NCBI RefSeq assembly: GCF_030551255.1
Contig: NZ_CP130630.1
Coordinates: 12,027,001-12,091,000 of the forward strand
Source of the DNA: Streptomyces sp. NL15-2K
GTDB taxonomy: Bacteria; Actinomycetota; Actinomycetes; Streptomycetales; Streptomycetaceae
Reading direction: 5' to 3'
DNA length: 64,000 nt
Position 1 is the first letter of the stretch. The number at the start of each line of letters is the position of its first letter. Shown one piece after another: positions 3,415-31,091 of the stretch. The notes under the pieces are model-generated. The model saw only the letters and a list, made by a program, of their open reading frames with translations. It was not told where the DNA came from and made no database searches. A program made the position numbers and the translations under genes.

Positions 3415-5065
3415 GTGAACGCCTCGCCTGCCACAGCCGCCTCCACCCCCACTGCTCCGGGAGCCCTCCCTCTCATCGGCCACGCCACCGGCTCACCCGC
3501 GACCCGTTGCCTTCATCACCTCGCTGCGCCGGCATGGCAGCGTGGTGCGGATACGCATAGGTCCCACTCCCGCGTATGTCGTGACCGACCCCGCCCTGAC
3601 CCGCCGAGTCCTCGTCACGGACGCCGTGCACTTCGCCAAGGGCGGCAAGATCATCGACGCGCTGCGGGTCTTCTTCGGCGACGGACTCGCCACCGTCGCC
3701 GACGGCGACACTCATCTGCGCAACCGCCGCCTGATGCAGCCGATGTTCAACAAGGCGCATATCGCCACCCGCGGCACCGCCATGATCGAGCAGGTCAGAG
3801 CGATGATCAGCGCATGGGACGAAGCCGAACCCCGTGACGTGTACGCCGACATGAACGACATCACGCTCGCCGCGTTCCTCGTCGCCCTGTTCGACACGGA
3901 CCTCCCCGCGCACCTCCAGGGCGAGTTCACCGCCCTCATGCCCGCGATCATGAAGGGGACGATCCGTCAGACCGTCCTTCCCCCCTGGGTCACCCGTCTG
4001 CCCTTGCCCGCCAACCGCGCCCACGCGGAGCGCGTCGCCCGGTTGCGTGCCCTCATCGACCAGGCCATCGACCATCACACCAGCCGGGCACCGTATCCGC
4101 CCTCCGAATCCGCGGACACCCCGACCGAGCCTGTGGGCTGCCCGCACGCCGCACCGGCGCAGGAACGCGAGGGGCTGTTCACCACCCTGCTGACCGCCGA
4201 GGACCCGCTGACGCGGCAGCAGTTGCAGGACGAGGTCATCACGCTGCTGACCGGCGCGATCGAGACAACCGGCACCACGCTGGCCTGGACCCTGTACGAG
4301 ATCGCCGGCAACCCCTAGTGCCCCAGCAGGCAACGTTTGCCCCGTCGCGACGCCCGGCACGTACTCTCGCCGCACCGGCCGAAAGCCCAAGTACGTCCAG
4401 TACGAGGGCTTCCGGCCGGCACGCCGAGAGCACGCACCGGACGCCGCTCCTTAACGGGCAAACGTTGCCTGCTGGGGCACTGGATCGAACAACGCCTGCG
4501 CGACGAACTGGCCTCGGTCTGCCCGGATCGCCCCTTGCGCTACGCCGACCTGGACCAACTCCCGTACGTCCGCAAGGTGCTCCAGGAGGCCGTCCGCAAG
4601 TACGGACCGGCGTGGATGGTGACGAGGACCGCCACCCAGGACGTCGACCTGGGCGGCCACCGCATACCCGAAGGGGCCGACGTCGTCTGGAGCCCATACC
4701 TCCACCAGCACGACGCCGACTACTTCCCGCAGCCCGGGCTCTTCGACCCGGACCGCTGGACGCCCGAGCGCGCCCCGGCCACCCGCGGTTCCTTCCTGGC
4801 GTTCGGCGACGGACGCCGCAAGTGCATCGGCGAGAACTTCGCCTGGAGCGAGTTGCACATCATCCTGGCGACCGTCCTGCAACTCTGGCCCCGCCTCGAA
4901 CTCACCTCCCGCCCTCCCCGCGCGAAAGCCGTCGTCACCGTCAAGCCCGACACCATGACCATGGCGTTCCACCGGATGCCCACACCGGCGGCGGACAACA
5001 CCACCACACCAGCCCGCCGACCCCAACCGCCGGCACCGGACGAGCCGGCAGCGGCCTCGGGCTGA
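3415..5065 (+). pseudogene. Cytochrome P450, frameshifted and interrupted by a hairpin element
   Basis: P450 sequence runs from a GTG at 3415 (GAGGAG 11 bases upstream; proline-rich GALPLIGHATG start) to 5065. The N-terminus is out of frame with the rest: the frame changes near 3490-3515, where TTGCCTTC probably replaces TTGGCCTTC, after which FITSLRRHGSVVRIRIG continues. The I-helix region ends at LYEIAGNP and is cut at 4316 by an in-frame TAG supplied by an inserted 165-base element. The coding sequence resumes in the same frame at IEQRLRDEL and contains the heme-binding FLAFGDGRRKCIGENF near 4795-4850. Apart from these lesions all P450 landmarks are present. The architecture resembles terpene-modifying CYP170-like enzymes, but the substrate is unknown. 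Confidence 0.85.
4315..4483. mobile_element. MITE-like hairpin element 1, inserted in the P450 gene
   Basis: A non-coding element of about 165 bases with perfect 26-base terminal inverted repeats (4317-4342 and 4456-4481; outermost AGTGCCCCAGCAGGCAACG). The left end is preceded by CTAG and the right end is followed by CTGG. The interior is a 41-base imperfect hairpin (arms 4348-4388 and 4406-4446, 17-base loop). Of 41 positions 32 pair, 8 are A-C type on the plus strand (all become G-U in a minus-strand RNA) and one is C-C. Blocks CTCTCGCCGCACCGG, AAGTACGTCCAGTACG and CGCCGAGAGCACGCACC recur in the element at 30911 despite different ends. It has no transposase, so movement in trans by an IS5-type enzyme is inferred. 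Confidence 0.8.
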
Positions 5066-5097
5066 CCGCCGAGCGCTCCGCACAAGCGTCCGGGCTG

Positions 5098-6780
5098 CTA
5101 CAGCGCGAGCCAGGCCGCGTGGTCCGGTGCCAGTACACCGCCTTCCACGGGGCCGCTGGAGAGCAGGAGGGAGGTGTGCCCGGGCAGAGGGTGCGCCTCG
5201 GCCGAGAGGTTGACGACGCAGGCGAAGCCCGGTGCGCGACGGAAGGCGAGGACCCCGTCAGGGGCTTCCAGCCAGGTCAGGGTGCCATCGCCGAGCGCGG
5301 GGAGCTCACGGCGCAGCCGCAGGGCGGCGCGGTACAGCTCCAGCATCGATGTCTCGTCACCGGTCTGTGCCTGAACGCTGAACTCGCCCCAGTTCGCCGG
5401 TTGCGGCAGCCAGGGCGCCGCGGCGGCACCCGCCGGGCTGAAGCCGTACGGCTCGCTCCGCCCGGACCAGGGGAGCGGCACCCGGCAGCCGTCGCGTCCG
5501 CGGTCGGTGTGCCCGGACCGTTCCCAGATCGGGTCCTGGAGCACGGCCTCGGGCAGGTCCTCGACCTCCGGCAGGCCGAGCTCCTCGCCCTGGTAGATGT
5601 AGGCGCCGCCGGGCAGGGCGAGCATCAGCAGGGCGGCCGCACGGGCGCGTCGCCGGCCCAGTTCCAGATCCGGTGGACCTTCGGGCCGGTACGGCTCGTT
5701 GGCCACCCACCGCTTGACGGTTTTGCGGCCGTAGCGGCTGGGGTGGCGCATGACGTCGTGGTTGGAGAGCACCCAGGTGGCCGGCGCCCCCACCGCACCG
5801 AGCATCGCGAGCGAGTCGTCGATGACCGAACGCAGGTCCTTCGCGTCCCAACTCGCCATCAGGAAATCGAAGTTGAACGCTGTGTGCAGCCCGTCCCGGC
5901 GGACGTAGGCGGCGAGCCGCTCGGGGGTGTCCGCCCAGGCCTCGGCCACGAAGGACCGGTCGCCGGGGAACTCGTCGGCCACCTTGCGCCACGCGCGGTA
6001 GATGTCGTGCACTTCGTCGCGGTCCCAGTGCGGGTGGTCGAGATGCCGCCGTATCCGGTTCGCGGCGTCCGCCTCGTCCCGGCGGGAGAGCGGCCCCAGC
6101 ACCCCCGCCGGCTCCTCACGGGGCGGCAGGTCGGGCAACTCGGGGTCCTTGACGAGGCCATGGGCGACGTCGATGCGGAACCCGTCCACGCCCCGGCCGA
6201 ACCAGAACCGCAGGATCGACTCGAACTCCGCCCGCACCTCGGGGTGTTCCCAGTTGAGGTCCGGCTGCTGAGGGGCGAACAGATGCAGATACCACTGCCC
6301 GTCGGGCAGCCGCGTCCAGGCCGGACCGCCGAAGCAGGAGACCCAGTCGTTGGGCGGTTCGCCGCCGCCCGGTCCACGGCCGGGGCGGAAGACGTAGCGT
6401 TCCCGCTCCGGGCTGCCCGGTCCGGCCGCCAGCGCCGCCCGAAACCACGCGTGCTGGTCGGAGGTGTGGTTGGGCACGATGTCGGGGATGACGCGGATCC
6501 CGTGCCGGTGCGCCTCCTCGATGAGCTGTTCCGCCTCCGCCAGGCTGCCGAACAGCGGGTCGATCTCACGGAAGTCCGCCACGTCGTAACCGTGGTCCGC
6601 CATCGGCGACTTGTACCACGGGTTGATCCAGAGGGCGTCGACGCCGAGCGACTTGAGATACGGCAGACGGGAGCGGATGCCGGCGATGTCGCCGACGCCG
6701 TCACCGTCCCCGTCGGCGAAACTGCGGATGTAGACCTGGTAGATGACGGCGCTTCGCCACCACGGTGCGGTGCTGGGCAT
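5098..6780 (-). CDS. GH13 alpha-glucosidase / oligo-1,6-glucosidase
   Basis: A 560-residue cytosolic glycoside hydrolase of family 13 with no signal peptide. The four conserved regions are in order: DIVPNHTSD (residues 100-108), GFRIDVAHG with the nucleophile Asp204, EAWAD with the general acid Glu280, and LSNHD with the transition-state Asp342. QGEELG follows near the end of the barrel, then a small C-terminal beta domain. The start at 6780 has AAGGAG close upstream. It follows two sugar-permease genes and a binding-protein gene on the same strand, so it probably hydrolyses the imported alpha-glucoside (maltose, trehalose, isomaltose or similar) to glucose. The exact linkage preference is not readable. 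Confidence 0.9.
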   Translation of the reverse strand: MPSTAPWWRSAVIYQVYIRSFADGDGDGVGDIAGIRSRLPYLKSLGVDALWINPWYKSPMADHGYDVADFREIDPLFGSLAEAEQLIEEAHRHGIRVIPDIVPNHTSDQHAWFRAALAAGPGSPERERYVFRPGRGPGGGEPPNDWVSCFGGPAWTRLPDGQWYLHLFAPQQPDLNWEHPEVRAEFESILRFWFGRGVDGFRIDVAHGLVKDPELPDLPPREEPAGVLGPLSRRDEADAANRIRRHLDHPHWDRDEVHDIYRAWRKVADEFPGDRSFVAEAWADTPERLAAYVRRDGLHTAFNFDFLMASWDAKDLRSVIDDSLAMLGAVGAPATWVLSNHDVMRHPSRYGRKTVKRWVANEPYRPEGPPDLELGRRRARAAALLMLALPGGAYIYQGEELGLPEVEDLPEAVLQDPIWERSGHTDRGRDGCRVPLPWSGRSEPYGFSPAGAAAAPWLPQPANWGEFSVQAQTGDETSMLELYRAALRLRRELPALGDGTLTWLEAPDGVLAFRRAPGFACVVNLSAEAHPLPGHTSLLLSSGPVEGGVLAPDHAAWLAL

Positions 6781-6815
6781 ATTGCTGTGGTTCTCCTTGG
6801 GCCTTGGACGGGTGG

Positions 6816-7649
6816 CTACTTGGCCGCGCCCGAGGTGAGTCCGGCGACGATGCGGCGCTGGAAGACGAGCACCATGATCACCAGGGGGACGGTGACCAGG
6901 ACGCCCGCCGCCATCTGGCTGCCGTACGGGGTCTGGTACGACGTGGCGCCGCTGAACTTCGAAATGGCGACCGTCGCGGTCTGCATGCCGGGCTTGTTGG
7001 TCATCGACAGGGCGATGAGGAACTCGTTCCAGGCGGCGATGAAGACGATGATCGCGGTGGTGAAGATGCCCGGGGCGGCGAGCGGGATGATGATCTTGCG
7101 GAACGCCTGGCCGCGGGTGCAGCCGTCGACCATGGCTGCGTGCTCCAACTCTTCCGGCATCTGCCGGAAGAACGTGGTCAGGTTCCACACCGCCAGCGGC
7201 AGCGTGAAGGACATGCTGGGCACGATCATGGACTGATAGGTGTTGATCCAGCCGATGTTCGTGAACAGCTTCAGCAGCGGCACCACGATCGACACCACCG
7301 GGAACATCGAGGTGGCGATGATCAACGTGAGGATCAGTCGCTTGAACCGGAACTCCAGCCGGGCCATCGCGTATGCCGTGAACGTGGCCAGCAGCAGCGA
7401 CAGCGCGGTGGTGACGCCGGCGACGATCAGGCTGTTGAGCAGCGCGCGCGAGAACCCCTGGGACGGGCTGAACACCGCACGGTAGTTCTCGAACGACAGC
7501 GGATGGGGAAACAGCGAGGTGCTGAAGATGTCGGTGCTGCGCCGCAGACTGGAGACCAGCATCCAGTAGAAGGGGGCCAGGCAGTAGGCCACCACGGCGG
7601 CGACACCCACGTAGGGCAGCCACTGACGCCACTTGGCCGTGAGGGTCAT
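6816..7649 (-). CDS. Sugar ABC transporter permease (MalG family)
   Basis: A 277-residue inner-membrane protein with about six transmembrane segments and the cytoplasmic EAA loop (EELEHAAMVDGCTRGQAFRK, residues 170-190), which docks the ATPase. The N-terminus has MLVSSLRRSTDIF, typical of the MalG/AglG group. It overlaps the upstream permease gene by 4 bases (ATGA), showing translational coupling, and precedes the glucosidase gene by 35 bases. No ATPase gene lies in the cluster. In actinomycetes a shared MsiK-type ATPase encoded elsewhere usually serves such systems. Confidence 0.9.
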   Translation of the reverse strand: MTLTAKWRQWLPYVGVAAVVAYCLAPFYWMLVSSLRRSTDIFSTSLFPHPLSFENYRAVFSPSQGFSRALLNSLIVAGVTTALSLLLATFTAYAMARLEFRFKRLILTLIIATSMFPVVSIVVPLLKLFTNIGWINTYQSMIVPSMSFTLPLAVWNLTTFFRQMPEELEHAAMVDGCTRGQAFRKIIIPLAAPGIFTTAIIVFIAAWNEFLIALSMTNKPGMQTATVAISKFSGATSYQTPYGSQMAAGVLVTVPLVIMVLVFQRRIVAGLTSGAAK

Positions 7650-8728
7650 GCCGTCACCTCCGCACGGCGCGGCGCCGGAAGGGCTCGGCGCCTGCCCCGG
7701 GCCGCGCGTCGGCGCTTGGCGCCGCCTGCATCGCCGGCTTCGCCGACGAGATCGGCGCCCAGCAGCCGGACGAAGGCGAGCGCGATGAGGAAGACGTAGA
7801 GGAAGAGGAGCACCGCGTAGGCGGAGGCCGGTCCGAAGCGGACGTTGGAGGCTTCGTTCTGCGCGAGCATCGACAGGGTTTCCACCGAGCCTTTCTGCGC
7901 GCCGATGAGGATGTACGGCAGGTCGAACATCCGCAGTGCGTCCAGGCACCGGAACAGCACCGCCACCAGCAGCGCGGGCTTCACCAGCGGCAGGGTGATG
8001 CGCCAGAACCGGGCCAGGGCACCGGCCCCGTCGATCCGGGCGGCCTCGTAGACCTCCTTCGGGATCACCTGGAGGCCGGCCAGGACCAGCAGCCCGATGA
8101 AGGGGGAGGTCTTCCACACTTCGGCGATGATGACCGCGATCTTGGCCTGGAAGCCGTCGGCGGTCCACAGGACCTGATGTCCGATGAGGACGTTGGCGAT
8201 TCCGTCGGCGTTGAAGATCCACCGCCACAGCAGGCCGGAGATGGCCGTGGGAATCGCCCAGGGCACGAGGATGCCGGCCCGCACCAGGGCCCGGCCCCGG
8301 AACGCCTTGGCCATGATCAGTGCCATGGCCACACCGATCACCGTCTCCAGCGACACCGTGACGACGGTGAAGAGCGTGGTGTTCCAGAAGGCGTTCCAGA
8401 ATCGGTCCCCGGCCTGGGTGAAGATGTCGGTGTAGTTCCTCAGTCCGACGAACGGCTCGGTGTTGCTGATGAAACCGGTCTTCGGGTCCAGCCCCTTCGG
8501 CCCGTACAGCGACTCGTTCAGCGCCATGATCGTCGGATAGATCACGACGATCGTCAGCACCAGGAGCGTAGGGGAGACGAGCAGCGCGGCCAGCCGCCCC
8601 GTGCCCGCGGTCGCACGGGCTCGTGTGCGGCCGGCCTTCGGCGGCGAGGAGGGCCGCCCGGTACGGCTGCCGGGCGCGCTGCCGGAGTCGGGTGCGGCGG
8701 TTCCGGGCGGGACCTTGGTGTCGGCCAT
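7646..8728 (-). CDS. Sugar ABC transporter permease (MalF family)
   Basis: A 360-residue permease partner. A long proline- and arginine-rich cytoplasmic N-terminus (residues 1-45) precedes six predicted membrane segments. The EAA loop is EVYEAARIDGAGALARFWRI near residue 245. The start at 8728 was chosen as the ATG preceding the charged leader and following the end of the binding-protein gene by 11 bases. The arginine-rich C-terminus is unusually long and GC-rich. Together with the next gene it forms the membrane channel for the sugar captured by the lipoprotein encoded upstream. Confidence 0.9.
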   Translation of the reverse strand: MADTKVPPGTAAPDSGSAPGSRTGRPSSPPKAGRTRARATAGTGRLAALLVSPTLLVLTIVVIYPTIMALNESLYGPKGLDPKTGFISNTEPFVGLRNYTDIFTQAGDRFWNAFWNTTLFTVVTVSLETVIGVAMALIMAKAFRGRALVRAGILVPWAIPTAISGLLWRWIFNADGIANVLIGHQVLWTADGFQAKIAVIIAEVWKTSPFIGLLVLAGLQVIPKEVYEAARIDGAGALARFWRITLPLVKPALLVAVLFRCLDALRMFDLPYILIGAQKGSVETLSMLAQNEASNVRFGPASAYAVLLFLYVFLIALAFVRLLGADLVGEAGDAGGAKRRRAARGRRRALPAPRRAEVTA

Positions 8729-8739
8729 CACCCCACTCC

Positions 8740-10041
8740 TCACTGCGCCGTCAGCTTCTGCAGGTCCGCCTGCAGATCCTTCAGCGCCTGGGCGCTGCTC
8801 TTCTTTCCGGTCAGCGCGGCGTAGACCTCCTGCTGGATCGCCGACGTCACATCGCCGTACTGCACGACCCGCGGGCGCGGCACGGCATGCGTGATGGACT
8901 GCTTGAGGACGGGCAGGTACGGATACTGCTTGTCCAGCGCCGTGTCGTTGTAGAGGTCCGCGTACGGCGGGGCGAGGGAAGCGTTCTTCAGGAAGTAGCT
9001 CGCGCTCTGCTCGCTGCTGAAGAACTTCATGAAGTCCAGGGCCGTCGCCTTGTTCTTGGCGAAGGACGACAGGGCCAGGTTGGAACCGCCGAGGCTGGAT
9101 GTGCCGGGCCCGTTCAGGCCGGGCAGCGGTGCGACCGCGAACTTGCCCGCGATCTCGCTCTTCTGCGCCAGGGCGTACACGTACGGCCAGTTGTTCAGGA
9201 ATACCAGTTTTTTGGCCTGGAACGCCTGACGGCCGTCCTCCTCCTGGTAGGTGATGGCCTCCTTCGGGATCGTCTTGTCCTTGAAGGAGTTGACGAGGAA
9301 GTCCAGGCCCTTCTTCGCCTGCGGGGTGTCGACGTCCGGCTTGCCGTTCGCGTCGGTGATCTGACCGCCCGCGGAGTTCACGGCCTCGGCGAAGTTCACC
9401 GTCAGGCCCTCGTACTTCTGGAACTGCCCGGCGTAGCAGGACATGTTCTTGGCCTCGGGCAGCTTCTCCACCTTGGCGCAGTCGGCCGTCATCTCCGCCC
9501 AGGTGGAGGGGGGCTGGGTGATGCCGGCCTGCTTCAGCAGGTCGCTGCGGTAGAACAGCATGCCGCCGTTCGAACTGGCCGGGACCGCGTACAGATTGCC
9601 GCGGTACTTCGCCGTCTCCACCACCGGCTGCAGCATCTTCCGCAGCGGGAACTGGTTCGCGGGCAGGGGCTCGATCCACTGGTGGGCGGCGAACTCCGAC
9701 GTCCACACGACATCGGTGGCGAGCACCGTGTAGGCGTCGGACTTCGTCTCCGCGTTCTGGATCATCTGCTGTCGCTGCGAGTCGGCATCCGTCGGCAGCT
9801 GGATGAAGGTGACCTTCTCCTTCGGGTGCAGCTTGTTCCAGCGGTTGATGATCGTCTGCACGGTGCCGGTGGTGTCCTTGCCGGCCACGTACGTGATGGG
9901 CCCACGTCCCTTGAAGGACGTGTTCTGGGCCGGCGCCGCGGAGCTGCTGCCGCCGGACGAGCCGCAGGCGGTGAGCAACAGCCCGGCGGCGACGAGCGTT
10001 GCCGAACACTGAAGGACTCTGGTGGTCCTGATCTTCTGCAC
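8740..10041 (-). CDS. Extracellular sugar-binding lipoprotein of ABC transporter
   Basis: A 433-residue solute-binding protein of the maltose-binding type. The GTG start at 10041 has AGGAGAG just upstream and gives a proper lipoprotein signal peptide (KIRTTR, a hydrophobic stretch, then lipobox LTAC at about residues 21-24). An upstream ATG at 10140 is open but would place the signal sequence internally, so it was rejected. The mature domain contains family features such as GNLYAVPASSNGGMLFYRSDLL. It delivers an alpha-glucoside to the two permeases downstream. The promoter region carries a LacI-type operator, matching the divergent regulator. Confidence 0.9.
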   Translation of the reverse strand: MQKIRTTRVLQCSATLVAAGLLLTACGSSGGSSSAAPAQNTSFKGRGPITYVAGKDTTGTVQTIINRWNKLHPKEKVTFIQLPTDADSQRQQMIQNAETKSDAYTVLATDVVWTSEFAAHQWIEPLPANQFPLRKMLQPVVETAKYRGNLYAVPASSNGGMLFYRSDLLKQAGITQPPSTWAEMTADCAKVEKLPEAKNMSCYAGQFQKYEGLTVNFAEAVNSAGGQITDANGKPDVDTPQAKKGLDFLVNSFKDKTIPKEAITYQEEDGRQAFQAKKLVFLNNWPYVYALAQKSEIAGKFAVAPLPGLNGPGTSSLGGSNLALSSFAKNKATALDFMKFFSSEQSASYFLKNASLAPPYADLYNDTALDKQYPYLPVLKQSITHAVPRPRVVQYGDVTSAIQQEVYAALTGKKSSAQALKDLQADLQKLTAQ

Positions 10042-10362
10042 GGTCTCTCTCCTGGTCGTGCGGAACCGGAGCCGTGACTGTGTCGTCACGGGGTTCTGTG
10101 GAAGAAAGCGCAGGTCAAAGCCCTGAATGGAAGACTTCATGGGGACGGCTTCGACTCCGCCGTGGCAACGTTTGCATGACAGGCGTGCAACCTGGGGAAA
10201 ACAATCCGCAAATTCCCGGTAATGCGGGCAAGGATTAATCGAATACTGTGCCCTTTATGCGGCTTTTGCTGCGGTATTCGGCTCTCATGTCTTCGGAGGG
10301 GGCGATGACAGCGCTGTCACAGCCGCGCCTCTGAGAAGGGTCAGCCGTGTTAGCGTCCGCTC
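10042..10362. promoter_or_regulatory. Divergent promoter region of the alpha-glucoside cluster
   Basis: This 321-base gap separates the binding-protein gene (minus) from the LacI regulator (plus). It holds the operator-like palindrome at 10163-10176 and an AT-richer stretch near 10195-10275. Only spurious short frames are present. Confidence 0.5.
10163..10176. promoter_or_regulatory. LacI-family operator TGGCAACGTTTGCA
   Basis: The sequence TGGCAACGTTTGCA fits the LacI/CcpA-type consensus TGNNANCGNTNNCA, with a central CG and near-perfect dyad symmetry. It is 122 bases upstream of the binding-protein start and 187 bases upstream of the regulator gene. The adjacent LacI protein is the obvious candidate to bind it. 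Confidence 0.6.
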
Positions 10363-11430: not shown

Positions 11431-11487
11431 CGGACCCGCGGCGGCACGGGGCGAGGTGAGCACCGCCGGCCCGGAGGCCCACGGCGT

Positions 11488-12006: not shown

Positions 12007-12042
12007 GGCCCCCCTAGCTGGTTCAACAAACGGTCTCGCATG

Positions 12043-23243: not shown

Positions 23244-23505
23244 GTCCTTCGCTCCGCGTCGTCGGCGGCCCGCGCCGCGGCGGCCGTCACGGCGGGTCTG
23301 CTCGCGGGGTGGTCCTTGAGGCTTTCCGGCACGCCGGCACATGTGGTCGGACGGGGACGAGGGGCTTCCCACCCCCATCGTGGGGCACCCGCCGTACCAT
23401 CGAGCGGTCGCCGGGCCGCCGGTGGGGGGGCGAGCGCACAAGCCCGCCCCCTTGCCGGAACGCCGCTGCACCACCGCTCTCAGGCGGTCCCCGGACGGGC
23501 CTCGC

Positions 23506-24402
23506 TCAGCCGTTGCCGCCGGAGGCGGCCGGAGCGGCGTGCACGGCGTGCCCACCGAACTGCTGCCGCATCGCGGCGAGTGCTTTCAGCTGGGCGGCGT
23601 CCGGCTTGCGGGAGGCGAAGCGGGCGAACAGCGCGCCGGTCATGGCGGGGGCGGAGACCGCCAGGCGTACGGCCTCCTCGACGGTCCAGCGGCCCTCGCC
23701 CGAGTCGTCGACCCGGCCGGACAGACCGGCCAGCTCGGAGTCCTGCTCCAGGGCACGCACGAGGAGGTCGAGCAGCCATGACCGTACGACCGTGCCGTGC
23801 CGCCAGGAGGCGAGCACCTTGGGCACGTCGGGAACGTACTCGCTGGCCTCCAGCAGTTCGTAGCCCTCTGCGAGGGACTGCATCATGCCGTACTCGATGC
23901 CGTTGTGGACCATCTTGGCGTAGTGGCCGGCGCCCACCGGACCGGCGTGGCAGATGCCGTCCTGCTCCGGGGCGAGTGACTCCAGCAGCGGCCACACGCG
24001 CCGGACGTGCTCGTCCGCGCCGCCGCACATCACCGCATAGCCGTTCTCCCGGCCCCAAATGCCGCCGCTGACACCGCAGTCGACGTATCCGATGCCGTGC
24101 TCGGCGAGCATCCGGGCGTGCTCGGTGTCGTCGCTGAAGCGGGAGTTGCCGCCCTCGACGATCACATCGCCGGGGGAGAGGAGGCCGGCCAGCTGCCGCA
24201 GCGCTTCGTGGGTGGGGTCCCCCGCGGGCAGCATCAGCCACATCACACGCGGGGCGGCGAGCTTGCCGACCAGTTCCTCCAGGGAGTTGACGTCACGGTC
24301 GGGGGAGGTGCGGCTGTAGCCGACCACCTCGTGGCTCTGGTCGCGCCAGCGGGCAGCCATGTTGCCGCCCATGCGTCCGAGACCGACGATTCCTACCTGC
24401 AT
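23506..24402 (-). CDS. gnd: 6-phosphogluconate dehydrogenase, decarboxylating (short form)
   Basis: A 298-residue protein of the short 6PGDH group. It has the dinucleotide motif VGIVGLGRMGGNMAARW at residues 3-19, EGGNSRFSDD near residue 82, DCGVSGG near residue 112 and KMVHNGIEYGMMQ, with the catalytic Lys and the HNGIEY substrate block, near residue 166. The enzyme converts 6-phosphogluconate to ribulose 5-phosphate and CO2 and is often NAD-linked in this subgroup. It is the last gene of the minus-strand operon starting at 27391 and completes the route begun by gluconokinase. Confidence 0.9.
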   Translation of the reverse strand: MQVGIVGLGRMGGNMAARWRDQSHEVVGYSRTSPDRDVNSLEELVGKLAAPRVMWLMLPAGDPTHEALRQLAGLLSPGDVIVEGGNSRFSDDTEHARMLAEHGIGYVDCGVSGGIWGRENGYAVMCGGADEHVRRVWPLLESLAPEQDGICHAGPVGAGHYAKMVHNGIEYGMMQSLAEGYELLEASEYVPDVPKVLASWRHGTVVRSWLLDLLVRALEQDSELAGLSGRVDDSGEGRWTVEEAVRLAVSAPAMTGALFARFASRKPDAAQLKALAAMRQQFGGHAVHAAPAASGGNG

Positions 24403-24405
24403 GGT

Positions 24406-25344
24406 TCAGTCCTTCGTGGTGGTGTGGTGCGGGTGAGGGCGGTGGCCGCCGAACCCGTGGCCGTCGCGGAGCAGTTGGAGGACGACGCTGTTGTCCAGCT
24501 CGCCGAGGCCCCGGGCGTCGACCGCCGCGTACAGCCGCGCGACGGTGGCGGACAGCGGCAGCGTGACGCGCGCGTCGGCGGCGCTGTGCAGGACGAAGCC
24601 GAGGTCCTTGTGGAGGTAGCGCGCGGGCCCGGAGGGAGTGAAGTCGCTGTCGGCGAGGTGGTGGTGTTTCTGCGCGAGCACTTCGGACGAGGCGAGGCCG
24701 CCTGCCAGCACTTCCAGCAGCGCGGCCGGTTCGAGTCCGCCGCGTTCGCCGAGCACGACGGCCTCGGCGAGGGCCACCAGGGTTGCGGCGACGACGAGTT
24801 GGTTGCACGCCTTGGCGAGCGACCCGGCTCCGGTGTCGCCCATACGGCGGACGGTCGAGCCCATCGCGGCCAGGTACGGGCGGACGTGTGCGACGGCGTC
24901 CTCCGCCCCGCCCGCCATGATCGACAAAGTGGCGTCGCGCGCGCCGGTCACCCCGCCGCTGACGGGGGCGTCGACGACTGTGATGCCGCGGGGACGCAGC
25001 TCCGCTGCCAGGGCGCGGACGGCGACCGGCGAGACGGTCCCCATCACGACGAGGGTGTCCATGGCCGCGTCCGGTCCCGTCAGCAGTCCGTCCGAGCCGT
25101 CCAGCACGTCCCGGACCTGGGGCAGGTCGGGGAGCATGGTCAGTACGACAGGGGCGGTGGCCACCTGGGCGGGACGCTCCGCGGCACGGCAGCCGGCGGC
25201 GACGGCGGCATCGAGGGGCGGGCGGCGGCGGTTCCAGGCCAGGACGTCGAAGCCGGCTTTCGCGAGGTTGGTGGCCATCGGCAGGCCCATCGCGCCGAGC
25301 CCTATGAAGCCGACGGTTGCGGACCGGGTGGTCGGGGAGCTCAC
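24406..25344 (-). CDS. Beta-hydroxyacid dehydrogenase (second paralogue)
   Basis: A 312-residue relative of the 16700 gene, with VGFIGLGAMGLPMATNLAKAG at the N-terminus, DAPVSGGVTGARDATLSIMAGG near residue 125 and GAGSLAKACNQL with the catalytic Lys near residue 175. The GTG start at 25344 overlaps the stop of the upstream gene (GTGA). The C-terminus is His-rich (HRPHPHHTTTKD), which is atypical. It probably handles a small beta-hydroxy acid such as tartronate semialdehyde, threonate or hydroxyisobutyrate; the precise substrate is unknown. Confidence 0.87.
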   Translation of the reverse strand: MSSPTTRSATVGFIGLGAMGLPMATNLAKAGFDVLAWNRRRPPLDAAVAAGCRAAERPAQVATAPVVLTMLPDLPQVRDVLDGSDGLLTGPDAAMDTLVVMGTVSPVAVRALAAELRPRGITVVDAPVSGGVTGARDATLSIMAGGAEDAVAHVRPYLAAMGSTVRRMGDTGAGSLAKACNQLVVAATLVALAEAVVLGERGGLEPAALLEVLAGGLASSEVLAQKHHHLADSDFTPSGPARYLHKDLGFVLHSAADARVTLPLSATVARLYAAVDARGLGELDNSVVLQLLRDGHGFGGHRPHPHHTTTKD

Positions 25345-26420
25345 GTGCCGACCTCCGCACGTCCATGCCGCGCCAGCGCGCCCAGCCGCTCGGCGAGGTA
25401 CGCGTGACCCAGCACATCCCGGTTGACGACGAAGCGCGGCAGCCGCCCCGTCGCCACGTCCACGATGGCCCGTACGGCACTGCCGCCGTTTCCGGCGGAC
25501 ATCTCGTCGGTCCACGCGAGACTGTGCGGGGCGAGGACCACGTTGTCCATGCTCAGCAGCGGGTTGCCGGGGTCGGGCGGCTCGGTCTCGAACACGTCCA
25601 GTCCCGCCCCGCGGATCCGGTCGGCACGCAGCGCCTCGATCAGCGCCGTCTCGTCGACGATCGGACCGCGCGCGACGTTGAGCAGCACGGCCGAGGGCTT
25701 CATCAGGGACAACCGCCGCGCATCGACGAGATGGCGGGTCTCCTCCGTCAGCACGCACATCACGATCACGGCGTCGGCCTCGGCCATCACGGTGTCGGCG
25801 TCGGCGAGACGCACGCCGAGTTCCCGGGCGGTCTCCGGCGGGCAGTACGGGTCGTAGGCGAGGACCTCGGCCTCGAACGGCCGCAGTAGTACGACCAGAT
25901 CGCGTGCGGTGTTGCCCAGCCCGAGCAGGCCGACGCGGCGGCCGGTGAGCCCGAGCCCCATCCACTGCTCCCTCTCGCTCCAGCGTCCCTCCCGCACCAG
26001 CCGGTCCTTGGCCGTGACGTTGTGCAGGACGGCCAGCAGCAGGGTGAGGGCGGCGGTGGCGACGGGGCGCCGGGCGCCGTCCGGGGTGATGGTCACCAGG
26101 GCGCCGTGCCGTGTGCAGGCGTCGAGGTCGACGCTGTCGTAGCCGACTCCGAAGCGGGCGAAGAGCAGTGGGGGTCTGGCGAGGCCCGCGAAGGTGCGGG
26201 CGGTGACGGCGGGGGCGGCGAACAGGACGGCGTCCAGGCCGTCGACGTCCGGGGCGAGGAGTTCGCCGGTGTCACGTGGCAGGTAGTGCCAGTCGATTCC
26301 GGCGGCGTCCAGCTCGCCGAGCCGGATGTCCCCCCAGACGTTGCGTCCGTCCGCGTCGAGGAAGTCGCGGCTGACGCCGACGGTGAACCGGCCGTCGGCC
26401 GGCTGGAGGTTCGTCATCAC
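25341..26420 (-). CDS. D-isomer-specific 2-hydroxyacid dehydrogenase
   Basis: A 359-residue NAD-dependent enzyme. GRRVGLLGLGNTARDLVVL is near residue 160, LNVARGPIVDETAL (catalytic Arg) near residue 245, DVFETEPP (Glu) near residue 274, and LAPHSLAWTDE (His) near residue 300. The catalytic-loop Gly-Gly is replaced by the HSLAW variant seen in some family members. Both gene ends overlap neighbours by 4 bases, so it is part of a tightly coupled operon (cyclase - 2-hydroxyacid dehydrogenase - beta-hydroxyacid dehydrogenase - gnd). It is likely a sugar-acid or keto-acid reductase. Confidence 0.88.
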   Translation of the reverse strand: MMTNLQPADGRFTVGVSRDFLDADGRNVWGDIRLGELDAAGIDWHYLPRDTGELLAPDVDGLDAVLFAAPAVTARTFAGLARPPLLFARFGVGYDSVDLDACTRHGALVTITPDGARRPVATAALTLLLAVLHNVTAKDRLVREGRWSEREQWMGLGLTGRRVGLLGLGNTARDLVVLLRPFEAEVLAYDPYCPPETARELGVRLADADTVMAEADAVIVMCVLTEETRHLVDARRLSLMKPSAVLLNVARGPIVDETALIEALRADRIRGAGLDVFETEPPDPGNPLLSMDNVVLAPHSLAWTDEMSAGNGGSAVRAIVDVATGRLPRFVVNRDVLGHAYLAERLGALARHGRAEVGT

Positions 26421-27391
26421 AGCACCGCGACCGGGTTGACGGGCGAGCCGGTGCCGCCGGGGACGTTCAGCGGTGCCACGACGAGCAGGAACTCGTAGCG
26501 GCCCTCGGCGGCGCAGGCGGTGGACAGTGCCTCCAGGTCGAGGTTGTCCAGCAGCGGTACACCCATGGCGGTGAGGGCGAGGGCGTGCACGGGGGAGTGC
26601 AGTCCCTCGACGGGGGAGGGACGTACGTCGCTGTCGCCGTCGCCACCCAGCAGGGCGATCCCGCGCTCGGCCAGCAGGGGGACGGCGTCGACGTGGAAGC
26701 CGGCGCTGGCGTTGTCGGGGTTCCAGGCGCCGAGTTCGGCGCGGCGCCGGAAGTGACCGGAGCGCAGCAGGACCGCGTCTGCCTCGCCGATGGTCACGCC
26801 GAGCGCCTTCTCGGCGGCGAGGACGTCCTCGGCGTGCACCGCGGTGCCGGGCTCCAGCCAGTCGGTGCCGAGGACGGCGGGCAGATCGATCAGGACGCCC
26901 CTGGTGACGAGCGGACCGAGGGCGGAGACGGCGCCGAAGTGGGCGCCGGCCGCGTCGACGACCTCGCGGGCGGTGCGGCCGTCGTAGAGCTGCCCGCGGT
27001 AGGCGATGTGCGAGAGCGCGTCGAGATGGCTGACGCCCTTGCCGTGGTAGTCGACGGCGATGAAGTCCTTGTGGCAGGACGGCTCGGGAGCCTCCACGTC
27101 ACCGAGGTCGGACATGTAGTGCAGGGCGGGCTTGCCGTTGTCCGGGCCGGGCACCGTGTTCCAGGGCAGGGCCATCGGGACGGTGGTGCCGCTGCGGACC
27201 AGGGCGGTGGCACGCTGGACGTGTGCCGGGGTGACCCGGTTCCACGCGCCGCGGTCGGCGGGGGTCCAGCGGCCCCAGGTGCGCACCGCGTCGAAGAGCG
27301 CGTCGAACTCCTCCCGCGACAGGCGGGGTCCGTTGTCGGGGAGGGGAGGGGAAGGCTGGGGATGCGGGGAATCGGTAGGGCTGCTGGTCAT
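26417..27391 (-). CDS. Cyclase-family (kynurenine formamidase-like) metal-dependent hydrolase
   Basis: A 324-residue protein of the cyclase/kynurenine-formamidase fold. The metal-binding HYHGKGVSHLDALSHIAYRG region (the HxGTHxDxPxH equivalent, here HGKGVSHLDALSH) is near residue 135, and a C-terminal EGLHSPVHALALTAMGVPLLDNLDLEAL block near residue 268 is diagnostic. Members open or close amide or lactone rings. In a sugar-acid operon a lactonase-like role is attractive but unproven. The start at 27391 was chosen as the last ATG before the conserved region; an earlier in-frame ATG near 27535 would run into the IclR promoter. Confidence 0.8.
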   Translation of the reverse strand: MTSSPTDSPHPQPSPPLPDNGPRLSREEFDALFDAVRTWGRWTPADRGAWNRVTPAHVQRATALVRSGTTVPMALPWNTVPGPDNGKPALHYMSDLGDVEAPEPSCHKDFIAVDYHGKGVSHLDALSHIAYRGQLYDGRTAREVVDAAGAHFGAVSALGPLVTRGVLIDLPAVLGTDWLEPGTAVHAEDVLAAEKALGVTIGEADAVLLRSGHFRRRAELGAWNPDNASAGFHVDAVPLLAERGIALLGGDGDSDVRPSPVEGLHSPVHALALTAMGVPLLDNLDLEALSTACAAEGRYEFLLVVAPLNVPGGTGSPVNPVAVL

Positions 27392-27528
27392 GTGCTGCTC
27401 AGCGCTCCAAGGCTCGGAGGGTGCCGTCGGCCGGCCCGAAGGCGCGCTACGGTCGGGAATCTCGGCGAGACTCGACGGCAAAGCGTGCGCCGACGGCATT
27501 GTCGTTCGGGGACACACGAGGGACAATA

Positions 27529-27540
27529 ACAACATGCTGA
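27529..27540. promoter_or_regulatory. ACARCATNYTGG-type site upstream of the IclR gene
   Basis: ACAACATGCTGA lies 32-43 bases upstream of the probable IclR start and matches 11 of 12 positions of the motif repeated at 17598-17720 and 31203. GTCGTTC and GAACGAC near 27501 and 27539 also form an inverted repeat around it. This position suits autoregulation and control of the divergent cyclase operon. Confidence 0.5.
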
Positions 27541-27571
27541 ACGACGAACAGAATGATGGGTGGAGTTGACG

Positions 27572-28366
27572 GTGAGCGCAAGCGACCCGGGAAGTCTTGT
27601 CCCGGCGGTGACGCGGGCCGTGGCGATCCTGGACACGCTCGGTGAGGCGGAGGGCCGCCCGCTGTCGGTCAGTGAGATCGCACGTGCCCTGGGCCTGCCG
27701 AAGTCCTCGACGGGGAACCTCTGTGCCTCACTGGAGGCGGCGGGCATGATCACGCGCAACGGAACCGGCTTCGGCCTGGGGCGCAAGCTGGTGGAGCTGG
27801 GTGGGCGTTATCTGTCCACGGTGGACCAGCTGCGCGACTTCTACGAGCTGTGCCGGCGCAGCGCGCACATCTCCCGGGAGACCGCCCGGGTCGCCGTCCT
27901 GGACGGCCTGGATGTGCTCTACCTGGCCAGGTACGACGGCACCCAGCCGCTGCGGCTCACCGCCAACATCGGCGACCGCTTCCCCGCGAACTGCACGGCG
28001 ACCGGGAAGGCCATCCTGTCCACCCTGGACCCGGCGGTGGCCGAGGACCGGCTGCGCGGCCGCACCCTGCCCGCGCTCAGCGACCGGTCCATCACCTCGG
28101 TGCCGGCGTTGCTGGCGGATCTGGCGGCGAGCCGGGAGCGGGGCTACGCCATCGACGACGAGGAGGCCGGGGCCGGCATCGTCTGCCTGGCCGTGCCGGT
28201 CAGGGGGTTCCGTACCGACTCCTCGCCCTTCGCGATCAGCGTCACCGTGCTCAAGGCGCGCCTGGACGACGAGTTCCGCGAGGCGCTGCTGAAGGATCTG
28301 CGTGCCATCGCGGCGGGGCTGGAGAACCCCATGCTCCCGCAGGGGGTGTCCACCGGCAGCGGATGA
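27572..28366 (+). CDS. IclR-family transcriptional regulator
   Basis: A 264-residue regulator with a winged helix-turn-helix (PLSVSEIARALGLPKSSTGNLCASLEAAGMI, residues 30-60) and the IclR effector domain. The GTG at 27572 is preferred because GGTGGAG lies 6 bases upstream; an in-frame GTG at 27560 adds four residues. It is divergent from the cyclase-gnd operon. Its likely targets are the genes carrying the ACARCATNYTGG motif, which include both gluconate operons and the sugar transporter plus pentose-phosphate genes. The effector is probably a sugar acid, by inference from these targets. Confidence 0.9.
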   Translation: MSASDPGSLVPAVTRAVAILDTLGEAEGRPLSVSEIARALGLPKSSTGNLCASLEAAGMITRNGTGFGLGRKLVELGGRYLSTVDQLRDFYELCRRSAHISRETARVAVLDGLDVLYLARYDGTQPLRLTANIGDRFPANCTATGKAILSTLDPAVAEDRLRGRTLPALSDRSITSVPALLADLAASRERGYAIDDEEAGAGIVCLAVPVRGFRTDSSPFAISVTVLKARLDDEFREALLKDLRAIAAGLENPMLPQGVSTGSG

Positions 28367-28371
28367 GGCCG

Positions 28372-28381
28372 CGCGGGGGCT
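28372..28381 (+). terminator. Left arm of the IclR terminator, split by insertion elements
   Basis: If the 2.7-kb insertion array is removed, 28372-28381 pairs with 31106-31115 (10 bp) and GGTCC-ACGC-GGACC (31091-31104) forms the apex, giving a compact hairpin 6 bases after the IclR stop codon. The CTAG target (28380-28383) is in the stem. The arms are now 2.7 kb apart, so the hairpin can no longer fold in the message. Confidence 0.55.
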
Positions 28382-29483
28382 AGGGCCTGTGTGACGTTGT
28401 GATCAATCTTGCCGATCCGGATCCCTCTGGAAGGCAGATCCGGTAGGAAGACGATCGTGACGCGAAGGCAACTCACCGACGAGCAGTGGCAGTTGATCGA
28501 ACCGTTCCTGCCGATAGGCGAGTGCGGTCCGTACCCTGAGCGGCTGCGTGAGCAGTTCGAGGGGGTGATCTGGCGGTTCCGCACCAGCAGTCAGTGGCGG
28601 GAAATGCCGGGCGGGTTCGGCCCGTGGCCGACGGTCTACGGCCGTTTCCGGGTCTGGCGGGACGCCGGCGTCTTCACCGCACTGCTGGAAGGTGTGATCG
28701 CTGAGGCCGCCCGCCAGGGGAAGACGGACTTGTCCCTGGTCAGCGTGGACTCCACCACCGCCCGGGCCCACCACGACGCCGCCGGGATGTGCATCGGCAA
28801 GGAGGTCATGGACGCCCTGGAGGAAGCCGCCGCCGACCAGGAACGGGCCTGGCAAAAGGGGGCGGCCCGCCGGAACAGAACGGACAGGACGGAAGCGACA
28901 CGCCCGGGCGGGAAGAGCGGCGGCACGTCAGGCGACGGCGCAAGCTCCGTCTGAAGGAAGCCCTGCTCGGCAGGTCCCGTGGCGGGCTGACGAGCAAGGT
29001 TCATCTCGCCGCGGACCGCAAGTGCCGTCCGTTGTCGTTCGTCCTGACCGCAGGACAGGCCGCCGACAGCCCGCAGTTCGTCCCCGTGCTGCAGAAGGTG
29101 CGGGTCCGTCTGCCTGTCGGCCGTCCCCGGACCCGGCCTGGCGCTGTCGCTGCGGACAAGGCCTACTCATCCCGCGCCAACCGTTCCTACTTGCGAAAAC
29201 GCAACATCAAGGCCGTCATCCCGGAGAAGAGGGACCAGGCTGCCAACCGAAAGAAGAAAGGCAGCCGGGGCGGCCGGCCCACAGGTCACGACACCGGTCT
29301 CTACAAGGAGCGGAACACCGTCGAGCGCCTGATCAACAAGCTGAAGGCCTGGCGGGGCATCGCGACTCGATACGACAAGACGCCCGAGAGCTACCTCGCC
29401 GGCCTCTACCTCCGCGCCTCGATGATCTGGATCAACGATCTACTGAAGGCGACAGGTTGATCACAACGTCACACAGGCCCTAG
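28380..29483 (+). mobile_element. IS5-family (IS427-like) insertion sequence
   Basis: This 1.1-kb element is bounded by perfect 27-base inverted repeats (28380-28406 and 29457-29483; the outer bases start CTAGGGCCTGTGTGACGTTG). The repeats include CTAG at both ends, so the target is CTAG or the TA within it. It encodes a two-frame IS5-type transposase on the plus strand. Both ends and all visible motifs are intact, so the element may be active. Its right CTAG is also the left CTAG of the next element. Confidence 0.9.
28457..29460 (+). CDS. IS5-family transposase made by -1 frameshifting
   Basis: The first frame (GTG 28457, RBS AGGAAG) encodes TRRQLTDEQWQLIEPFLP, typical of IS5-group enzymes, and the first catalytic Asp in SVDSTTARAHHDA. 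The second frame carries the second Asp (AADKAYSS) and the Glu (ERNTVERLINKLKAWRGIATRYDK) and ends at 29460. The frames overlap between 28789 and 28954 and are related by -1. The run CAAAAGGGGG at 28852-28861, read AAG GGG in frame 1, is a credible slippery site. This arrangement is common in the IS427 group and need not mean decay. Confidence 0.85.
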
Positions 29484-30914
29484 TAGGACTCCGTTAGGTC
29501 TTCCGGTCGGGCCTGTTCGGGAGCATGTTGGGTTGGGTGGATGCACATGAAGTGAACCGTGTGCGGGCGAAGTTGGCGCTGTTCGTGGCGGATGTGTTCG
29601 CCTCGGTGCCGCGGAAGGACCAGCGGGCCAAGGGCGACTGCTACTTGCGCGGACTGATGCTGGACGGTCGGCGCAAGTCCATCCAGGCCATGGCCTCGCG
29701 ATTACCGGACGGCAACGAGCAGAACCTGCAGCAGTTCGTGAACCAGTCCACGTGGGATCCGGTGCCGGTGCAGCGCAGGATCTGCGAACGGATGCTGCCG
29801 CTGATCGGTCCGGCGGCGTGGGTGATCGACGATGTGTCGGTGCCCAAGGACGGCCGGATGTCGGCCGGGGTGGCTCCGCAGTACTGCGGAGCGTTGGGAA
29901 AGAGAGCAAACTGCCAGGTCGCGGTCAGTATTCACGCCGCCACCGACACCGCCTCCTGCCCGCTGCAATGGCGTCTGTTCCTGCCTGAGGAGTGGGTATC
30001 GGACACCGTCCGCCGGGACCTCGCGCGGATCCCGGCGGACGTCACGCACCGCGAGAAGTGGCGCCTGGCCCTGGACATGCTCGACACGCTCGCCGGCTGG
30101 GGCATGAGGCCGCCGGCTGTGGTGGCTGACGCCGCCTACGGCACCAACGCGCATCTGCGAGCCGCATTGTCCGACCGCCAAGTCGCCTACGTGCTGGCCG
30201 TCCGCGGCGATGTGACCGCCCATCCGTTGGACGCGGAGCCTGAGGCCCCAGCCCGCAACGGGCATGTCGGCTGCTGGCCACAGCCCCGCTACCGGCATCC
30301 AGCACCGTCCTTGGCGGCCCTTGCCGCCGGCCTTGATCAAGACGCATTCACCCCGCTCACCTGGCGGCACGGCTCGAGAGGGGAGTTACGTTCCCGCTTC
30401 GCCGCCGTGCGTGTCCGTCCCGCCGGCAAGGCCGTCGAGCGCCCGATCAAAGCTGCGGCCTCGGCCGGACAGGGCTGGTGGGACGGGATCCTGCCCGACT
30501 GCTGGCTGCTGGTCGAATGGCCCTCCGGCGCCGAGGCGCCGACCGATTACTGGCTGTCCAACCTGCCGGCCGACACTCCGATCGCCGACCTGGTCCGTCT
30601 GGCGAAGGTCCGCTGGCGCATCGAGCACGACTACCGCGAACTCAAGCACGGCCTGGGCCTGGACCACTTCGAAGGGCGTTCCTGGCCGGGCTGGCACCAC
30701 CACGTCACCCTCGTGACCGCCGCCCACGCCTTCCTCACCGAACAGCGCCTGGCCCCAAAAGTGCCCGGGCCGGTCTCACCCTCTACCAAGTCCTCGAGAC
30801 CCTCCAGGACGTCTTGAGGTGCTGGACCGGCATCTGCACCACCTGCCACCAAACCCTGCCCACCAGGACCTACACAACGCCAAGATCGAGAAAGACCTAA
30901 CGGAGTCCTACTAG
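29480..30914 (+). mobile_element. IS701-family insertion sequence
   Basis: This 1.43-kb element has perfect 19-base inverted repeats (29484-29502 and 30892-30910; TAGGACTCCGTTAGGTCTT) flanked by a direct CTAG on each side (29480-29483 and 30911-30914). This matches the 4-base CTAG/YTAR target duplication of the IS701 family. One transposase gene fills it. The left CTAG belongs to the IS5-type element and the right CTAG to the following hairpin element. Confidence 0.9.
29525..30817 (+). CDS. IS701-family DDE transposase
   Basis: A 430-residue transposase. Motifs include WVIDDVSVPKDGRMSAGVAPQYCG with the first Asp near residue 102, VVADAAYGTNAHLR with the second Asp near residue 201, and the Y-R-E-K-like block VRWRIEHDYRELKHGLGLDHFEGRSWPGWHHH near residue 365, which carries the Glu. 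This layout is characteristic of IS701. One TTA leucine codon occurs at 29702-29704, so in a Streptomyces host its translation could depend on the bldA tRNA. The C-terminus changes to a low-complexity tail after FLTEQRLAPK, hinting at a small C-terminal frameshift. Confidence 0.9.
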   Translation: MLGWVDAHEVNRVRAKLALFVADVFASVPRKDQRAKGDCYLRGLMLDGRRKSIQAMASRLPDGNEQNLQQFVNQSTWDPVPVQRRICERMLPLIGPAAWVIDDVSVPKDGRMSAGVAPQYCGALGKRANCQVAVSIHAATDTASCPLQWRLFLPEEWVSDTVRRDLARIPADVTHREKWRLALDMLDTLAGWGMRPPAVVADAAYGTNAHLRAALSDRQVAYVLAVRGDVTAHPLDAEPEAPARNGHVGCWPQPRYRHPAPSLAALAAGLDQDAFTPLTWRHGSRGELRSRFAAVRVRPAGKAVERPIKAAASAGQGWWDGILPDCWLLVEWPSGAEAPTDYWLSNLPADTPIADLVRLAKVRWRIEHDYRELKHGLGLDHFEGRSWPGWHHHVTLVTAAHAFLTEQRLAPKVPGPVSPSTKSSRPSRTS

Positions 30915-31091
30915 GCCCTGTCGTCAAATTCCCGCCTGCCGCGCGACGCCATGCACGCACTCTCGCCGCACCGGGCCCTGACCCAAGTACATCCAGTACG
31001 TGGGTCAGGGCCCGGCGCGCCGAGAGCACGCACCTGACGCCGCGCGGCCCGCCCTTCGGGCGGACGACGGGAATTTGACGACAGGGCCTAG
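30911..31091. mobile_element. MITE-like hairpin element 2
   Basis: A 181-base non-coding element flanked by CTAG on both sides, with perfect 24-base inverted repeats that include the CTAG (30911-30934 and 31068-31091; CTAGGCCCTGTCGTCAAATT outermost). Inside is a 46-base imperfect hairpin (30939-30984 with 31002-31047): 37 pairs, 7 A-C type mismatches that become G-U on the minus strand, and 2 others. Its loop AAGTACATCCAGTACG and the blocks CTCTCGCCGCACCGG and CGCCGAGAGCACGCACC match element 1 (4315), while the terminal repeats and the inner stem are different in sequence. The ends resemble IS5-type ends, so mobilisation in trans is inferred. Confidence 0.8.

Follow-up and report, generated by a model that had tools for sequence, protein, structure and literature searches.

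Hairpin Elements with a Constant, One-Sided Core and Exchangeable Ends: A Modular MITE-Like Family in Streptomyces

Two hairpin elements, found in a 64,000-nucleotide stretch of Streptomyces sp. NL15-2K (contig NZ_CP130630.1, positions 12,027,001 to 12,091,000; the window, to which all coordinates and strands below refer unless another locus is named), carry the same core under unrelated ends. They are members of a large, modular and non-autonomous Streptomyces family resembling miniature inverted-repeat transposable elements (MITEs), and we propose, with a probability of about one half, that their core, a one-sided hairpin, is maintained by a safe-strand mechanism. The family is built of a constant middle stem, swappable ends, swappable apical loops and optional side hairpins. 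Where its stems deviate from Watson-Crick pairing, one strand mostly shows G-T (G-U in RNA) and the other hence A-C. In the NL15-2K genome, and under different ends, the copies have a preferred orientation relative to the replication fork and a weaker one relative to the neighboring genes.

Results

The Shared Core and Its Distribution

An earlier note on this DNA had described two hairpins with different terminal repeats and common internal blocks. Both elements were recovered at its positions, as CTAG..CTGG at 4315-4483 (element 1) and CTAG..CTAG at 30911-31091 (element 2). The blocks CTCTCGCCGCACCGG (4364 and 30960), AAGTAC[GA]TCCAGTACG (4389 and 30985), CGCCGAGAGCACGCACC (4422 and 31018) and GACGCCG (4440 and 31036) occur in both in identical order and spacing, and the outer 26 nt agree at 6 positions only. 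The common part proved to be larger than the inner blocks: it comprises a whole 97-nt hairpin, in which a gap-free alignment gives 78 identities in 97 positions (none of 5000 shuffles exceeded 46), and which folds best on the minus strand. In predicted folds, each window element forms a single long hairpin, with -152.6 kcal/mol on the minus strand versus -119.3 on the plus strand for element 1 (RNA parameters), and -167.9 versus -135.7 for element 2.

A covariance model (R1), built from 26 diverse cores, gave 135 matches in the NL15-2K genome (12.4 Mb), corresponding to 122 places after the weaker of opposite-strand matches was dropped. The core is therefore not restricted to the two window loci, and its many copies combine diverse ends with a constant interior, as the note had anticipated for a conserved unit. 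The loop block alone has 70 exact copies in this genome; when up to two mismatches were allowed, the 16-nt pattern of the loop gave 66 + 68 matches, compared with 13 + 10 for the reversed pattern. In a class-wide sample of 296 genomes, searched with stricter filters and 14 candidates scored per genome, so that copy numbers are floors and weak relatives may escape, matches were found in 13 of the 28 genomes of the genus (NL15-2K included) and in none of the 268 others. A scan of named genomes for the loop gave at least 120 stretches, and the 80 loci listed were all from Streptomyces (52 genomes). Nine plasmid records matched, eight from Streptomyces and one from Embleya, a member of the same family, whose copy is diverged. 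A link to phages was not seen, with 0 matches in 50,697 phage records. The elements mostly measure 140-280 bp and lack a transposase gene, with deletion forms down to 71-76 bp, a size range typical of MITEs.

Exchange of Ends, Loops and Side Modules

Assignment of ends to the nearest consensus, allowing up to four mismatches, yielded 16 groups (A, B, C, D, D2, E-K, M, N, P and Q), a division of our own choice. Single linkage (up to four differences in 20 nt) placed 156 distinct elements in just six clusters, of 85, 57, 7, 4, 2 and 1 members, because the end types headed by AGGGCCTGT grade into each other; the two smallest clusters look wrongly delimited. The window elements fall one in each of the two largest clusters. 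In the NL15-2K genome, both ends belonged to the same group in all 103 typed elements (loop recognized, identical copies counted once), namely A 50, B 12, C 18, D 7, D2 4, E 6, F 1 and G 5. Among 111 typed rows from other genomes and plasmids, the ends matched in 94, one end was untyped in 10, both were untyped in 2, and 5 were discordant. The discordant rows include one with a neighboring fragment (locus L318), pairings of the close groups D/D2 and D/G, and locus L077, a plain hybrid with a type A end on one side and a type G end on the other. At L318 (about 1940-1976 of that locus), a type A end fragment directly adjoins a type B element, perhaps the result of one element having inserted into another.

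Loops and ends were combined in the NL15-2K genome as A1, A2, C1 and C2, as B1, B3, D1 and D3, and as E5, E6, G5 and G6. The four-gamete rule is thus broken three times, for A/C with loops 1/2, B/D with loops 1/3 and E/G with loops 5/6, and in each set the ends and the interior must therefore have been exchanged, most simply by recombination within the constant stem. Simple, strict descent with two kinds of ends, the alternative that the note had left standing, is excluded by these three violations. The data support its suggestion of a conserved core re-packaged by different ends; recombination would be the means of this re-packaging.

Other parts of the elements vary as well. Several kinds of side hairpin are inserted in either arm, and in elements of 140, 155, 76 and 71 bp the ends are kept while the core or its apical part is lost. 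The mini-elements of 71 and 76 bp (L227:117-187 and L228:103-178) are hardly more than two ends. A second repeat, whose units read TGGGGG..GGGGGAG on the minus strand, interrupts the element arms at several fixed points and even the apical loop (L003, L020, L024, L207, L280 and other loci); it may be a separate mobile hairpin.

One-Sided Pairing of the Core

In 68 elements, G-U pairs numbered 702 on the minus strand and 26 on the plus strand. A cell-by-cell analysis was carried out on 62 distinct, module-free cores, taken from 87 of 200 detections (the others contained modules or other loops, or were wrongly delimited), and gave 2040 Watson-Crick, 524 G-U, 38 other and 2 A-C cells. When each column variant was counted once, the minority departures comprised 19 G-U, 11 other and 2 A-C (p = 2e-4), and variants seen only once or twice were G-U in 14 cases versus A-C in 2 (p = 0.004). 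Nine of the 11 other departures are G-G or G-A when read on this strand, and thus C-C or C-T when read on its complement. All 122 places in the NL15-2K genome fold better on this same strand, with RNA and DNA parameters alike. The asymmetry is weaker in the outer 24 bp, with 187 G-U versus 42 A-C cells and 123 others in 183 elements, some of them wrongly delimited; the rare one-sided variants of this outer stem are 14 G-U, 5 A-C and 24 other.

Individual parts of the core are conserved to different degrees. There is hardly any variation in the middle stem. It has three conserved tandem wobble steps GUGC/GUGC, each pair of which is present in 52 to 62 of the 62 cores. The apical GTAC/GTAC pairs are invariant in all 62, with an adjacent helix that varies freely with compensation. 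Changes on both sides were seen at 10 of 42 pairs, amounting to 52 cells compared with 15.6 after shuffling, and none of 500 shuffles reached as many. In total, 97.8% of cells pair, and 30-52% do so when the partner is slid, a comparison favored by the fact that the structure was derived from the consensus of the same cores. Covariation, one of the marks of a structured RNA, is thus seen in the core. Searches of the window against Rfam gave no match at the gathering score; relaxing the threshold brought up only hairpin families below that score, most of them microRNAs.

A coding function was considered as well, as the loop block of element 1 reads PKYVQYEGF in one frame by eye. It was dropped, since type B has an in-frame TGA and several element lengths break the frame. 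CsrA is a protein that binds GGA hairpins, and the apical loops of the window elements (4389-4404 and 30985-31000), read as RNA, are reminiscent of such sites in the form GUAC-UGGAY-GUAC; we know of no CsrA from Streptomyces.

Orientation to the Replication Fork and to Genes

The dnaA gene lies at 5.767 Mb in the NL15-2K genome. To its left, the well-folding strand was the plus strand in 45 places and the minus strand in 17, and to its right it was minus in 46 and plus in 14. The well-folding strand is thus the leading-strand template at 91 of 122 places (p = 5e-8), on the assumption that replication runs from dnaA toward both ends and with tandem copies not being fully independent. A free fit placed the switch of orientation at 5.65-5.90 Mb. 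Elements with different ends behaved alike (A 43:17, B 10:3, C 15:5, D 4:1, E 6:1, G 6:0, D2 1:0, F 1:0, and 5:4 at the nine places whose type was not read), and no end type was oriented the opposite way. As a control, the PF01609 transposase genes showed no bias, with 37 of 66 co-directional (p = 0.39).

Neighboring genes, taken here from our own codon-bias predictions, were co-directional in 140 of 238 cases. Between convergent or divergent genes, the fork orientation was 43:11 (p = 1.4e-5); a first pass at non-tandem sites, on 45 places, had given 17:7 (p = 0.06). Since gene direction is uninformative at these sites and the bias persists, transcription is ruled out as the sole cause of orientation. 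At tandem-gene sites, the poorly folding strand of the element was the sense strand in 48 of 65 (48:17, p = 1.5e-4), the well-folding strand being antisense. A joint model (119 of 122 places) assigned p = 6e-7 to the fork and p = 0.0015 to the genes. Over all loci, 74 of 93 left neighboring genes are directed toward the element. A preference at stop codons was rejected as the explanation of this figure, as both orientations are equal there; where a coding sequence runs into the element in another frame, the orientations were 15 versus 2.

The bias was already present among close copies. At 0, 1-2, 3-5, 6-10 and at least 11 differences from the nearest copy, the fork orientation was found in 6/8, 32/39, 26/34, 14/20 and 13/21 places, respectively. 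The bias is early and does not grow, and a slow purge is therefore not what is seen. The note had supposed that the core may do something itself. Strand-specific folding, and an orientation bias that follows the core under different ends, lend this idea indirect support.

Junctions and Transposase Partners

In 172 elements, the inner AG..CT bases deviated at 11 of 344 ends and the bases just outside at 29. Six of the 172 junction pairs had changed to the inverted pair CC..GG, whereas no deviation took the form of a direct repeat. This suggests that the element, with AG..CT as its own outermost bases, enters at CT^AG and duplicates nothing, a reading of junctions that are ambiguous by themselves because CTAG is palindromic. 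Twelve relatives empty at another insertion site had sequences there too variable to discriminate between the duplication models. Element 1 lies in frame within a cytochrome P450 gene, and a homologue from another genome (L342) aligns gap-free across the joined site, consistent with a net gain of 165 bp and compatible with models with and without duplication alike. A TAG stop codon at one junction only was found in 53 of 135 elements, 38 more having short flanks. The junction provides the TAG stop codon of the neighboring gene in either orientation, and targeting of CTAG would make insertions at gene ends harmless. A transfer RNA gene suspected at one insertion site (L041) was not found there.

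The note had further called the ends IS5-type. This holds for type D2 and probably also for the remaining types headed by AGGGCCTGT. In a plasmid insertion sequence (IS; locus L319), which scores 130.5 bits against the NCBIfam model IS5_3, the ends read AGGGCCTGTTGCGAAAGTGG and AGGGCCTGTTGCGAAAGTGC. They match type D2 in 20 of 20 bases on one side and 19 of 20 on the other; the junctions are CT and AG, and the transposase frame was seen only as a 177-aa open piece. The AGGGCCTGT-headed types are therefore probably moved by IS5 transposases. The IS5 copies of the NL15-2K genome carry the ends AGGGCCTGTGTGACG. For type A, the end type of element 1, no autonomous partner was found in 37 IS loci of this genome (30 of 66 PF01609 places and all seven PF13359 places) or among the collected loci longer than 2.5 kb.

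Neither window element is part of a transposase gene, element 1 lying in the P450 gene and element 2 adjoining an IS701 copy. The possibility of a transposase fragment was rejected, as blastn of both elements against the two window IS copies gave no match, and the element frames gave only short peptide matches to these copies, of chance size (E 0.004 or worse).

Discussion

How could such a family arise and persist? We suppose that different IS5-type transposases recognize the different ends, and that copies swap ends and loops with one another through homologous recombination in their constant stems. The constant stem would be kept because it is a one-sided hairpin, folding well on one strand only. 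The strand that becomes exposed, namely the lagging-strand template and the displaced strand of transcribed genes, would fold poorly and carry A-C mismatches, which the endonuclease NucS would hardly cut. Insertions in the opposite orientation would be lost early or never made, and a fully symmetric palindrome would lack any safe orientation. One rule, that the strand becoming single is the poorly folding one with mainly A-C mismatches, covers both the fork and the gene biases. Because an element looks the same from either end, only the core or the adjoining side hairpins can be the source of the asymmetry. NucS is described as an actinobacterial mismatch endonuclease that prefers G-T, G-G and T-T and acts especially poorly on A-C (PMC8228993). 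The orientation pattern fits avoidance of NucS or of hairpin nucleases, but plain hairpin stability on the other strand equally well. What we infer here is the cause of orientation, be it cleavage by NucS or at hairpins, strand-specific insertion, or RNA. A bolder version, in which the selfish unit is the core rather than the ends, a one-sided palindrome that borrows active IS5-type ends and evades destruction because the strand laid bare at forks and in transcribed genes carries A-C mismatches to which NucS is blind, is offered as a tentative idea that we rather doubt. If it were true, the chromosomal orientation of the elements would report on how Streptomyces polices hairpins and on NucS activity.

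Several observations weigh against the safe-strand proposal. Safety alone leaves the retention of a hairpin on the other strand unexplained. The bias shows no growth with age (youngest versus oldest copies, p = 0.13) and is hardly tied to the inequality of the strands (30/43, 30/41 and 33/41 in tertiles, ties counted twice). Among the 53 elements with a TAG at one junction, the orientations relative to the gene are equal (26:27). Furthermore, the fork bias is established in the NL15-2K genome only; three other genomes together gave 21 of 33, which is not significant (p = 0.16). These were G261 with 17/27 (left arm 11/13, right arm 6/14), G304 with 4/5 and G057 with 0/1. All seven copies at 5.84-7.83 Mb of G261 contig 1 run the wrong way, as if a block had been inverted or misassembled. 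Genome G302 was omitted, as its dnaA lies near a contig end and its count would be 3/8 if linear and 7/8 if a ring opened near dnaA; G313 holds no copy of the element.

Among the other explanations, a recombining but otherwise ordinary MITE family, in which template switching keeps the arms alike, the wobbles are ancestral, a transposase makes the bias and the core is idle, appears possible but improbable to us. Correction of palindromes would likewise yield matched ends and double changes, the eight wobble columns represent the majority state and could be ancestral, and both the mixed rare changes of the outer stem and the non-significant bias in the three other genomes are readily accommodated. 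What it accommodates poorly is that even the rare variants of the core are one-sided, that the middle stem is nearly invariant next to a helix free to change with compensation, and that no end type runs the opposite way.

Strand-specific insertion coupled to replication, either of a folded single strand in the manner of IS200/IS605 or by a transposase that reads the fork and so sets the orientation at entry, is in our view unlikely. It would account for a bias present in the closest copies (38/47 with a copy within two differences) and for the lack of a demonstrable target duplication, the deviating junctions suggesting CT^AG with AG..CT in the element. There are also precedents, orientation set by the fork being reported for IS608/ISDra2, for Tn7 through TnsE and for several IS families (PMC5371812). 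On the other side, the D2-type ends belong to an IS5-family DDE transposon, IS200/IS605 elements move the lagging template, which is here the worse-folding strand, and a single Y1 transposase gene was found in the genome. Recognition of the ends alone could not set the orientation either, as the outer 20-odd bases are alike at both ends. Quite unlikely, as we see it, is that the core acts as a functional RNA, whose transcribed strand would form a G-U-rich rod kept as an RNase III substrate, a terminator or a protein-binding site. Where gene direction is neutral the orientation follows replication, at most tandem sites the well-folding strand is antisense to its neighbors, at stop codons both orientations are equal, and the window has no Rfam family at the gathering score, with only sub-threshold hairpins at a relaxed threshold. 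Such a role would nevertheless explain the G-U pairs on one strand, the compensatory changes, the three GUGC/GUGC tandem wobble motifs and the invariant apical GUAC..GUAC, and elements that supply a TAG stop codon at one junction would lie in 3' untranslated regions.

The family can be compared with several known systems. Like the IS5 family and its MITEs, it has AGGGCCTGT-headed terminal inverted repeats, CTAG junctions and, in type D2, the ends of an IS5_3 element. Unlike IS5 MITEs, it joins one core to about 16 end groups, is near-palindromic throughout and shows no demonstrable target duplication, and the IS loci examined in the NL15-2K genome contain no autonomous partner with these ends. 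Pneumococcal BOX elements are modular hairpin repeats with optional internal units, in which the ends are constant and the middle varies; the Streptomyces elements are also modular hairpins, but with the reverse arrangement of a constant middle stem and variable ends. IS608 and ISDra2 use a short target without target duplication. Their orientation follows replication (PMC5371812, PMC6006769); in contrast to them, the known ends of our elements are those of a DDE transposon, and the strand that moved would be the poorly folding one. Instead of separate end hairpins, one hairpin spans the whole element, and the single Y1 gene lies at 2.50 Mb. This gene lies beside neither window element. The repetitive extragenic palindromes (REP) and their mosaic elements (BIME) associated with TnpA_REP (RAYT) resemble our family in being high-copy, strand-specific, imperfect hairpins linked to replication (PMC6006769). 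Our elements differ in having transposon-like inverted repeats with CTAG, ends that begin with AG within CTAG rather than a GT[AG]G foot, a size of mostly 140-280 bp, and only the one distant Y1 gene in place of a flanking tnpA_REP gene. The MITEs of Coxiella burnetii have been considered a source of small RNA (PMC5896051), and the part of that article available here does not mention a constant core with changing ends or one-sided pairing. In open-licence PMC full text on repeats, searched with partly narrow terms and with subscription journals outside its scope, no account of such Streptomyces elements was found. Taken together, the family is MITE-like by size and ends, and what is new is the constant core with exchangeable ends, the one-sided pairing and, in the NL15-2K genome, the fork-set orientation.

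Long palindromes are usually unstable in bacteria. The NL15-2K genome holds about 120 near-palindromes, most of them measuring 165-280 bp, and their one-sided mismatches and replication-set orientation suggest how such palindromes may survive. The elements offer a natural setting in which to test how actinobacteria survey their DNA for hairpins and, through NucS, for mismatches. In this family, moreover, MITEs appear as shuffled modules (ends, stem, loop and side hairpins) and not as the decayed descendants of a single transposon.

The Window Elements and Their Surroundings

The coordinates of the features in the window are collected in Table 1.

Table 1. Features of the two elements and their insertion sites in the window. 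Scores of model R1 are for cores that were both among its 26 training cores.
Feature	Position	Strand	Remarks
Cytochrome P450 gene, 5' part, broken by element 1	3542..4315	+	next codon TAG, created at the junction
Element 1	4317..4481	- (well-folding)	AG..CT, 165 bp, end type A, loop type 1
Element 1, left terminal inverted repeat, type A	4317..4342	+	26 nt, 100% complementary to 4456-4481
Element 1, conserved hairpin core, 97 nt	4349..4445	-	R1 105.3 bits minus, 64.8 plus
Element 1, apical loop block AAGTACGTCCAGTACG (minus strand CGTACTGGACGTACTT)	4389..4404	+	
Element 1, right terminal inverted repeat, type A	4456..4481	+	
Cytochrome P450 gene, 3' part	4482..5065	+	
IS5-family insertion sequence, ends AGGGCCTGTGTGACGTTGTG	28382..29481	+	between CT and AG
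IS701-family insertion sequence, between IS5 copy and element 2	29482..30912	+	NF033540, 423.5 bits; CTAG common to both neighbors
Element 2	30913..31089	- (well-folding)	AG..CT, 177 bp, end type B, loop type 1
Element 2, left terminal inverted repeat, type B, including CTAG	30911..30946	+	36 nt, 89% complementary to 31056-31091
Element 2, conserved hairpin core, 97 nt	30945..31041	-	R1 102.6 bits minus, 63.5 plus
Small side hairpin, one arm only	31049..31063	-	visible in folds of types B, C and D
Element 2, right terminal inverted repeat, type B, including CTAG	31056..31091	+	

The IS5 copy in the window was compared with NF033580 (transpos_IS5_3); its second half scored 144.6 bits, above the cut-off of 110, and its first half 101.8 bits, below it. 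Ends of this kind were present in six copies among the loci examined (L262-L267). At 28382-30912, the IS5 copy, the IS701 copy and element 2 stand in a row, with one CTAG per boundary. CTAG borders several IS families in the NL15-2K genome, and mobile elements thus stack at one another's ends.

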